DNA from: Cristatella mucedo
Taxonomy: Eukaryota > Bryozoa > Phylactolaemata > Cristatellidae
Length of the DNA stretch: 64,000 bases
Reading direction: 5' to 3'
NCBI GenBank assembly: GCA_009760855.2
Contig: WPIO01000001.1
Span: 8,616,501-8,680,500 of the forward strand
Positions 27,169 through 49,859 of this stretch are shown here, piece after piece. Position numbers and translations under genes: made by a program. The notes under the pieces are model-generated. The model saw nothing but the letters and a program-made list of their open reading frames with translations. It did not search any database and was not told where the DNA came from. Position 1 is the first letter of the stretch. Each line of letters opens with the position of its first letter.

Positions 27169-27383
27169 TCAGTTTTGAGCTCGATAAGTCAGATATGCGA
27201 TAGATCCAAGAACCGCCAGCACTAGATTGCAAACATTAAGGTTAGCCAGAGACGCCGAATTGCAGTTGTCAAGCAGGCAGTGACAAATTATCTGGGTAAC
27301 GCTGCCGCTAGTCGATTGAACGCAAGTGTTTACAGTCAGCCCAGTCAATGAAATGCTTCCAGGGAGGGCACACGTCCGATGAA
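27169..27383 (-). CDS. Ly6 paralog 2, exon 3 (C-terminal half and anchor signal)
   Basis: The acceptor GTTTTTTCTTTTCAG is very strong. The exon reads HRTCALPGSISLTG, NTCVQ, ICHCLLDNCN, then a hydrophobic C-terminus ending YRAQN and TGA at 27171. The Cys pattern C-x-C-x3-DNCN closes the Ly6 domain. Confidence 0.85.
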
Positions 27384-30300
27384 CTGAAAAGAAAAAACGC
27401 GTCGATACGCTTCAATATGCTTCGCAGATTTTGATGCAGATGTCGGTACGGGGCGTAGTAGTGACAGCAATGCTAGCGGTCTGGAATTAGGCGGCCAAGG
27501 AGTCACGCTAAGTCACGCAGCGAGCCGCTGGAGAGACAAGCTCATTTCGATTGTGCCTGCTTTGGACGACACTGCAATAATGAATTGTAGGCCTTTCAAA
27601 ATTAAATTGCGGATCCAAAATAATAATCCCTACTCGTAAGTGCGGCTGCGTGAAGGAAACATCGACCTATGACAGTCAAACGAGTCAGTTCGGAATTGTC
27701 CTAAAAATTGAGCCATTTCGCACGATTGCACCAGAAACAATGATCAGCGACCATACTTGAGCAGCGAGTGAATAAGTTCATGAAGTCAGTTCACAAAGCT
27801 GCTCGAGCTCTCAAGCATTCCTAGCGTAGGCGAATTCACTATTCGAGATGGTGACGGAGCTTTAGCTGAGCCTTGGAAAAGATTCGGATGACGAGCGCTT
27901 TTATCCCAGGCACCCGCGACTTGAAGCCCTGTTTGGCGCCCCACGTAATTCATAGGACCGACGTATCGACGCGGACCTCCAGCTTTATGCTACTAGCTCG
28001 GTGTCCCATGACGACTGAAGCCAGCGAAAGCAACGGGTGATCAATCGCTTACCGTTGCTCCAACAAAGGAGATTGGCATGGCCAGGATGTTACACAAATC
28101 TGCACGGAGAATGCAGCAGTTACTAAACTCCGGGTGTCCATTGCCCTGGGTCTTAGCCCAAGGTTAAGGTGCCGGAACATCACAACTTGGGTCGTGGGTT
28201 AGACTCCTGCAGTAAGTAGTCGATCCCTTATTGGCCACTGCAAGCGGTGGTGTAAGACACCAGACACTTCTGCCGCTACATACACGAGGCTATTCCATCA
28301 GCTAACCCTCGAGGCTGGTGAGGTAAGAAGATGGAAATTATCCTGTAGCCGACTCTGGGAAGCTATCACAAATTCTATTATTTATCGGGCACAGCACAGT
28401 TCCCCAGCAAATTTTGCCACCCCTCAAACAGATATGCTCGCCTACATTTGTGTTGGCGCAAGGTGCTACGAAGGTAAGGTAATTTCGTAGAACACGCCGG
28501 CGCACGTCGCTGAAATTTTTCTTCTTCTAATCACTCGTATCAACAACATTTTGGTAATCACTTCCCGGTAAAAAGACGAAAGACATCCCTATTCTACCTC
28601 ATCTGCTGTCTTGACTCGGCTATGCTTCCCATTTCCTCTTTGTTTCCTGAGATGAAGTTTTAAGCCTTTTAATTTGAAGCCTTTTAGCTACCGAATGCGT
28701 ACCGAAAGCCACCTAGGCACTATACAAAACTCTCCTGGGTAGCACCTATATAGTCTTTGAGGCTTTATTGAGTTACAGAAGTAGATACATTACATTCATA
28801 ATGCCTCTAAAAAGTTATCCAAACTCGCGGTGAAGAATTTTCATCTTTTAAGTTGACTTAAACCTTCATAGGTTCTATTGATCACTCATCCACGACAAAT
28901 AGCGTAACTCTTTTCTTTCCTGCAGAAAATGTAAAGCACATAGAAAAAGATTGAGTTCTCCGAGGGGGCTTTATCAAGTGTATTATTATTATTATTTCTT
29001 TTAATTGCATTAGGCTACTACTTTGGCACTTGCTTCTTGCAGACAAAACGTTGTGTTTAGCATGACCTGCATGTTTTCGTTAGGACCACATCAGCTAGAC
29101 AAAAAGCAGAGCAGATAGCTTTGCCAACTTCGAAAATGAAAAGCACTTCAAGTTTTTCGAAAGCGTCATGTCTTTCTGACAGTCGGGTTTCGCAGAACCC
29201 CAACAGGCGCTTCGATTGCACTTATCTCAACCATTGACCATGTGCAGTCGGTTGGAACATGCAGTCGATTGCTGCAGGTCGATAGAGTAACTGATGTACG
29301 CAGAGAATAAAACGAATTTTAATTGACACTCTCCTTTAAATAGTGCACTGAATTAAGGATCAGGTAGGTTGTATCATTCTCGCCTCCCGACATCGAGCGC
29401 TCTCACGTGCGTTCGAGTTCCCTGCATAATTCTTCCAAAAACCGAAGTTCTTGCGAGCATCGCATACGGAAACGATAGAGCTCAGACCTGTTTAAAGTTA
29501 TTCTGATTGTTATTTGACCGTAGCACGTAAGAAAGTACGTGCCTATGGATATCTAAACGCTTATCGCTTCGGGCTGCTGGGTCTCCCACGCCGGTGGCAG
29601 CCTTAGCTACGCCGGTGGCTAGTAACCTGCATGTTAGTAATGATCGCCAGCAGCTGTTACCGCTTCGTCGTCGTAGATCAAATGCATTGCTAGGTAGTAA
29701 TGCTGTTTCTAAGATTCGTGAACTATGCATTAACAAAAGAAAAGCACCCCAGAGCCGCCCCGGTGGCCAGAACCGCCAGCTCAGACGCCGCTCGTTGGGC
29801 GGGAACTGCCAGCTGAGTACCTGCCGTCGGGTATTCCTAGCATTGTCTCGATACGCCCAGCACGCTCCCCCACATGCGTCACTGTGAATCTCTTCAACTT
29901 AGTGGTCATTAGGCTTGTTATAACTACATCGGCCACACTTAACGCTTGCCTTTGGAATCCTCGCTTAATTTGCAATAAACCTTTGGTAATAAGCGACCTT
30001 ATTTCTGAAAATGGTATCGACCTACTCGCCCTAACTAAAACTTGGTTAAAATTGATAAACTGCCCGACAAATAAAGATGCAACCCCAACAGGTTTCTCAC
30101 TCTTTAACACCCTTAGATCAATAAAAACTGGATATGGAGTTGCTGTTATCGTGCGCTCGAAATTCTACTTCAAGCCATTTGGAATAGCCTCGAAGCCGTC
30201 TTTTGAATCGATTGTCTTGTCTAACCCTAACACAAGCTACCGCTCGCGGCGGTAGTGTATCACCCACCAAGTACCAAATCCTCCTTTATCTCTGATTTCT

Positions 30301-48600: not shown

Positions 48601-49859
48601 GCCTGTGGAAATAAAAAAAAGTATGACTTGGTTCGCCTACGGCACGGCTACCGTGCCATGGTATTGGTACTGCTTCAAATGGGGGCAAACGGTCTTTATT
48701 GGCTAACCTAATTTCCCAAGGCAAAGCATTCCAAAGGCTAAGTGGAAACCAAAATTCTTACCTGAAGTGTCTCGGTGGACAGATAGAACTGATTGCATAG
48801 CGCACTAGCTGGTTTTTCTCAGCGGCCCGTTAGGAGTAGCAGCAGTCTAAACACTGTCCAAACCGGACGTAAGACTATTATTGATACATAAATGGCCAGC
48901 AGAAAAGGCGATGAATACTTATAACCTCCCGCAACAGTGTTCAGAAGAAAAGTTGCTGCTCGGGCATGAGCCGCAATGCAGGGCTAGTATCAATGCCACG
49001 TATCAGGAGGCTGTATAGACAGGGATAGAAAGGGGTGAGATGATGACTTGGTTGAGGAGGGCGAGCGGGTGAGGAAAGTAAGCGCGAACAAGGAAGGCGC
49101 AGAAGGAGAAATGCGGGTAGGAAAGAGAAATGCAAAATTCGACCCCGGAAGCCAGGAAGAAGAACGGAGTGAGAAGGATGGAGGGCAAAGCTTAGATGAA
49201 GGAAGGAGAAGACAGATGAAGGGACGCGATGAATGGCGGGGGATGACGACGAACGGATGAGGGGAGTGAAAATCAACAGAGGATGAAAAAAAAAGATCAG
49301 TAAGGATGAGACAGTGGGACACAGGATACATGTCGCGAAACAGCGAGGGAGAGAGAGCGACAGTGAGAGAAACAGTGTTTGTGAGTGTGTTTGTGTGTGT
49401 ACAGTGTATTTTGTGTAAGTGTGCGTGTGTGTGTGCGTGCAGTGTGCTGTGTGTGTGTGTGTGCTCTCTGTGTGCGTGCGTGTGTGTGCGCAGTGTGTGT
49501 GTGTTGCGTGTGTGTGTGTGTGTGTGTGTGTGTTTGTATATGCATATATCTAATTCCATAAAGATATATGAGACAAAGAGAAGAGACAACGTAAGTAAAT
49601 CGAGAGACAGGCGCAGAGTGAGGAACGCAAGGAAAAAATAAACCAATAGTTAGCGAACAGGCTTAGCTTACTGATGACACTTCTAAAGCTTCTAGCACCT
49701 TCAGTGGCAGCAACCGATGTCGTACGCGAATGCGCAGCGCGACCTGTAGACGGCATAACATAGCATAACTGCCCAACTGACGAGCGTCGCAAGCAGCCAG
49801 TCGCGGCACCGACGAAAGTACGTACCGAAACTAGCAAGCCAATACAGCCAGCAGCGCAT
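45481..49859 (-). CDS. Ly6/uPAR domain protein, probable GPI-anchored (paralog 1)
   Basis: Seen: exons 49859-49826, 46415-46236 and 45689-45481 join in phase 1 into 140 residues. Signal peptide MRCWLYWLASFVTVALG, then TNCYNCGSLG, SCF, NCQ, PGCIKITYSDGDGDT, VWRGCADY, NSCAEG, YCHCSADLCN, then a short spacer and a hydrophobic tail (THLLAVSAFAVLLANLH). Exactly ten cysteines in canonical Ly6/uPAR order. Known: such proteins are three-fingered, usually GPI-anchored, and act as receptor or channel modulators or in cell junctions. Inferred: the role here, and descent from the same ancestor as the gene at 27-38 kb. The GxCIK...VWRGC junction matches quiver/sleepless-like proteins. Upstream in-frame ATG at 46437 would give a very short leader and is probably not the start. 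Confidence 0.85.
46236..46415 (-). CDS. Ly6 paralog 1, exon 2
   Basis: A 180-bp exon after the acceptor GTTTGCTTGGTTGCAG. It codes TVALGTNCYNCGSLGPQ through CIKITYSDGDGDT and ends ACACGG|GTACGT. Phase 1 at both sides. Confidence 0.85.
46842..46871 (+). repeat. 30-bp direct repeat, left copy
   Basis: CTTCATATTCAAGCACATTC followed by TGCACGGCTA; identical to 47952-47981, 1110 bases away. Both are in intron 1 of Ly6 paralog 1. Confidence 0.9.
47952..47981 (+). repeat. 30-bp direct repeat, right copy
   Basis: Exact match to 46842-46871; see that entry. Confidence 0.9.
48010..48445 (-). mobile_element. LINE 3'-end fragment, reversed, diverged subfamily
   Basis: Resembles the reversed C-terminal and 3' region at 18.1-18.3 kb (GTCAGTTGGTAGTGAGTTCC, TTGGAAGCCTAAGAGC) and begins with the end sequence AACTGAATCTCTTCGCGGGC. 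In intron 1 of Ly6 paralog 1. Confidence 0.55.
48552..48602 (-). other. Exon-like 51-bp segment in intron 1 of Ly6 paralog 1
   Basis: It is bounded by an excellent acceptor (TTTTTTTATTTCCACAG) and a good donor (ACG|GTATGC) on the gene strand. If spliced between exons 1 and 2 its second complete codon, after one codon shared with exon 1, is TGA, so it would act as a poison exon or belong to a noncoding transcript. Confidence 0.25.
49378..49542 (+). repeat. Compound (GT)n/(GTGC)n microsatellite
   Basis: Imperfect GT repeats with CA and GC interruptions in intron 1 of Ly6 paralog 1; preceded by a purine-rich GAGAGAGCGACAG stretch. Confidence 0.85.
49826..49859 (-). CDS. Ly6 paralog 1, exon 1 (signal peptide)
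   Basis: ATG at 49859 reads MRCWLYWLASF plus one base before the donor TTTCG|GTACGT. Joined to exon 2 it yields a compact signal peptide with the Cys domain starting a few residues later. It lies in GC-rich sequence with CpGs, as does exon 1 of the other Ly6 gene. Confidence 0.7.

Follow-up and report, generated by a model that had tools for sequence, protein, structure and literature searches.

Members of the Ly6 family are small extracellular binding proteins, many of which are GPI-anchored. According to the account of LU genes given in PMC6600238, a typical gene of this family is built from a signal exon and two exons for the domain, the latter as a rule bordered by phase-1 introns; the inner intron falls on the tip of loop 2, the GPI signal is encoded in exon 3, and such genes form small clusters, in Drosophila as elsewhere. 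For Sleepless, loop 2 has been described as required in transfected cells for binding to Shaker channels and to the Dalpha3 nicotinic receptor, and the same loop was also needed in transfected cells to lower the surface level of the alpha4beta2 receptor (PMC4735452). A different setting is described in PMC3058042, according to which the septate junctions of Drosophila require Boudin, Coiled, Crooked and Crimpled. The 64,000-nt stretch of Cristatella mucedo DNA analyzed here (in the following, the window) very probably contains, as judged from sequence comparison, two neighbouring Ly6 genes of the Quiver/Sleepless branch that arose by an ancient duplication, here called A and B.

Gene models, protein anatomy and surroundings

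The first-pass annotation had assembled the two genes from short minus-strand exons, and at the junctions it proposed the joined exons were found to give open frames for proteins of 140 aa (gene A) and 148 aa (gene B), with no internal stop codons in either and with all four introns bordered by GT...AG and in phase 1. The organization it had described, with three exons, phase-1 introns and a 180-bp exon 2 in both genes, is likewise seen on the genomic models, exon 1 of gene A being provisional:

49826..49859, minus strand: gene A exon 1 (34 nt), with the start codon and the larger part of the putative signal peptide; provisional (weak donor, rival starts)
46236..46415, minus strand: gene A exon 2 (180 bp), with Cys 1-5 of the Ly6 domain
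45481..45689, minus strand: gene A exon 3, with Cys 6-10, the closing CHCSADLCN, the hydrophobic C-terminus and the stop codon
38170..38221, minus strand: gene B exon 1 (52 nt), with the start codon and the putative signal peptide
33421..33600, minus strand: gene B exon 2 (180 bp), with Cys 1-5 and one extra Cys
27169..27383, minus strand: gene B exon 3, with Cys 6-10, the closing CHCLLDNCN, the hydrophobic C-terminus and the stop codon

By these coordinates, gene A has introns of 3410 and 546 bp and gene B has introns of 4569 and 6037 bp, and the coding spans of the two genes are separated by 7259 bp. The first intron is positioned in the putative signal peptide region, and the second, as calculated from the exon lengths, splits codon 72 in A and codon 78 in B, in each case between Cys 5 and Cys 6. 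When sites on the minus strand were ranked on rough scales, the four donors came out at 130, 47, 13 and 5 of 3958 GTs and the four acceptors at 275, 119, 11 and 2 of 3942. Poor support among these exons is limited to exon 1 of gene A.

Both proteins have a hydrophobic N-terminus, that of A depending on the uncertain exon 1. The pattern of ten ordered cysteines with an Asn after the last one, as expected of LU domains, is found exactly in A (Cys at 20, 23, 33, 47, 59, 76, 91, 104, 106 and 111, followed by Asn) and with one extra domain cysteine in B (Cys at 26, 29, 42, 51, 55, 64, 82, 98, 111, 113 and 118, followed by Asn), so that the Ly6-type cysteine order with a CN close read from the sequence earlier holds in CHCSADLCN of A and CHCLLDNCN of B alike. 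The domain of B has eleven cysteines as compared to ten, which leaves one in excess, and the tail contains another. The hydrophobic C-terminal stretch, also noted previously, is present in both proteins and is GPI-like; the tail of B ends in the polar residues YRAQN, which is not ideal for a GPI signal. NxS/T motifs number three in B and zero in A.

Repeats and transposon-like ORFs are found within and around the genes. A perfect (CA)245 repeat occupies positions 36952-37441 inside intron 1 of gene B, and a dispersed repeat of ~127 nt is present in direct and inverted copies over positions 35066-39115. Within this dispersed-repeat region, a 178-bp tandem pair (38760-39115) carries GGTTCGAATCC, which we take to be a tRNA-like B-box, and the repeat at 35066-39115 is perhaps a tRNA-derived SINE; an ARAGORN scan of the window returned no tRNAs, and Rfam gave no matches on the window at the gathering threshold. 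By eye, related ORFs at 29884-31237 (plus strand) and 54464-56578 (plus strand) appear to be pieces of one LINE-type element, the first group sitting in intron 2 of gene B, and the LINE-like ORFs at 30350-31237 and 56201-56578 matched no Pfam family at E values up to 0.01. The window further contains a reverse-transcriptase fragment (RVT_1; 18891-19337, minus strand) and a weak match to the DDE_3 transposase at 40684-41055 (plus strand), the latter under the curated cut-off (26.1 vs 28.6 bits).

Elsewhere in the window, a 279-aa ORF at 14673-15512 (minus strand) encodes a C2H2 zinc finger, with zf-met and zf-C2H2_jaz above cut-off, and the nearby 384-aa ORF at 15833-16987 (minus strand) gave nothing in Pfam up to E 0.01. 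The same was true of a 1119-aa Ala-rich ORF at 59272-62631 (plus strand), which is coiled-coil-like by eye, contains at 61920-62288 a tandem repeat with a unit of 63 bp (21 aa), and coincides with a rise of the local GC content to 0.66.

Family assignment and kinship of the two genes

The joined proteins were compared to Pfam, where both exceeded the curated cut-off (27.3 bits) of QVR (PF17064), the Quiver family u-PAR/Ly-6-like domain, with A reaching 37.4 bits (E 5.4e-9) and B 31.2 bits (E 4.7e-7), and with the match spanning profile positions 2-86 of 86 in both proteins. Exon 1 is unneeded for this assignment, the domains alone (exons 2 and 3) giving 38.5 bits (E 2.5e-9) for A and 31.5 bits (E 3.7e-7) for B. 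None of the four single-exon pieces was above the QVR cut-off, exon 3 of A giving a weak match (18.0 bits, E 0.0062), and QVR was found in 0 of 10 shuffles of the domains in which each Cys was kept in place. The Ly6-type identity put forward in the first-pass annotation is thus upheld, with the Quiver (QVR, PF17064) group as the sharper name. The profile search against the Ly6/uPAR family that had been proposed as a check gave QVR above cut-off and PF00021 (vertebrate-type u-PAR/Ly6) absent, with no match to the latter for A or B up to E 10 and PF17064 as the sole family listed, a negative result limited by the HMMER filters, which drop most weak matches.

Neither A nor B nor the A+B domain profile found a three-finger relative in sequence searches of the PDB, an outcome that is hardly surprising for domains this short and divergent. 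Four weak PDB matches (E 1.1 or worse) were to unrelated proteins and were discarded, and the A+B domain profile gave none. A scan of IMG/VR with the A+B domain alignment resulted in 23 pattern matches and no confirmed relatives, and is little informative as the contigs searched are viral.

A and B share 32% sequence identity over 103 positions (E 5e-8) and 34% over the domain. The domain alignment scored 107, and none of 2000 shuffles reached this value, either when the cysteines were fixed (mean 36.5, sd 8.1) or when they were free to move (0 of 2000; mean 32.2). When the exons were extended by 90 bases on each side, A and B were found to be similar from two codons ahead of the first complete codon onward, in exon 2 as in exon 3. 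In exon 3 the similarity stops just past CN; the local alignment of exon 2 continues beyond the exon end across some poorly matching intron codons. The proposal of a paralogous tandem pair on one strand is borne out by these comparisons, but with an identity of 32-34% the duplication must be old.

All six-frame stretches of at least 15 aa in the window were in addition scanned against the A+B profile. The four domain exons were returned at E values of about 1e-35 to 1e-30, by construction, as these exons made the profile. Beyond the known exons, no third Ly6 copy was found in the 64,000-nt window using either the profile or CxC...CN-type motifs, and for the profile nothing below E 0.7 appeared among the 30 matches listed. 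Genes A and B could conceivably belong to a larger lineage-specific Ly6 cluster of which the window shows only the edge, with B, which carries an extra domain cysteine and three N-glycosylation motifs, having acquired a new extracellular binding role, though we regard this as rather unlikely.

Alternative readings of the locus

The first exons of the two genes differ in how clearly they stand out. Exon 1 of gene B was the sole candidate at the strict donor threshold and ranked first among five for donor score as well as hydrophobicity at the lenient one, and it was matched by the A+B profile at E 4e-5, as compared to E 1 (domain 0.19) for exon 1 of gene A. The donor of the latter, TCG|GTACGT, is the one ranked 130 of 3958 minus-strand GTs on the rough matrix, the poorest of the four, and the exon drops out at the strict threshold, where two other first exons remain; at the lenient threshold it is among five candidates, with the lowest donor score (1.84) and the highest hydrophobicity. 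The acceptor of exon 2 in gene A also ranks only 275 of 3942. Gene A may be real with a different first exon, a variant that is compatible with the two-Ly6-gene explanation and that we consider possible, if somewhat doubtful. Translation could then start at ATG 46437, which is directly upstream of exon 2, contiguous and in frame with it, and yields a short hydrophobic start, or else in a separate exon, for instance 50802-50736, the donor of which is better than that of the proposed exon 1 (5.97 vs 1.84), as are those of three other candidates. A start at ATG 46437 would however leave a signal peptide of ~13 residues, which is shorter than usual, and it is the proposed exon 1 that is the most hydrophobic of the five candidate first exons, with an in-frame stop codon just upstream and an A at -3.

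Neither AATAAA nor ATTAAA was found within 2500 nt past the stop codon of gene A (in gene B, the first such signal is 860 nt past the stop), which would agree with one or both genes being decayed copies that have lost expression. This is very improbable, since both frames are open over all exons, the GT...AG borders are intact and the ten domain cysteines have been kept, and unconstrained copies of such an age (32-34% identical) would hardly have preserved frames, borders and cysteines. The exons were picked by eye and hence under some selection, leaving room for open stretches with no relation to each other having been joined by chance into Ly6 look-alikes, but the QVR matches (E 5.4e-9 and 4.7e-7) were obtained independently, Cys-fixed shuffles matched QVR in 0 of 10 cases, and 0 of 2000 shuffles reached the similarity between A and B, which makes coincidence of this kind close to negligible as an explanation. 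Two neighbouring, anciently duplicated Ly6 genes are by far the most probable reading.

Predicted function and comparison with known LU genes

As Ly6 genes of the Quiver/Sleepless branch, A and B probably encode secreted, putatively GPI-anchored three-finger proteins that bind a membrane partner. The signal peptide would direct the chain into the secretory pathway, where the ten cysteines are expected to form the LU disulphides that hold the three-finger fold, and the hydrophobic C-terminal tail would be swapped, shortly past the closing CN, for a GPI anchor. The anchored protein could then bind its partner via the fingers, as with loop 2 in Sleepless, and thereby alter the trafficking or activity of that partner. 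Candidate partners would be a channel or nicotinic receptor if the proteins act in neurons, or a septate-junction component if they act in epithelia, the sequence being compatible with either.

The two genes add two members to a large and well-described family and break no known rule. Genes for small secreted proteins that are split over several exons by long introns are easily overlooked in annotation, so the exon models may be of practical use. The likeness of A and B to the Pfam QVR domain, and thereby to the Quiver/Sleepless LU group, is one of family level, and any orthology with Drosophila quiver/sleepless itself would be putative.

By the description in PMC6600238, the anatomy of A and B is ordinary, as LU genes usually have short exons and phase-1 introns and lie in clusters. 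Both genes resemble the archetypal single-LU GPI-anchored genes presented there in having three exons and phase-1 introns, an intron 2 that separates Cys 5 from Cys 6, a hydrophobic C-terminus encoded in exon 3, and neighbouring paralogues. Gene B differs from this archetype in its introns of 4.6 and 6.0 kb, which hold repeats and transposon-like ORFs, and by one extra domain cysteine, and for both A and B the GPI anchoring is a putative one. Boudin, Coiled, Crooked and Crimpled are described in PMC3058042 as carrying one Ly6 domain each, with the ten cysteines diagnostic of it, and the likeness of A and B to these proteins is by that description only; for insect Coiled, the same source gives 12 invariant cysteines, as compared to the 10 found in the domain of A and the 11 in that of B.
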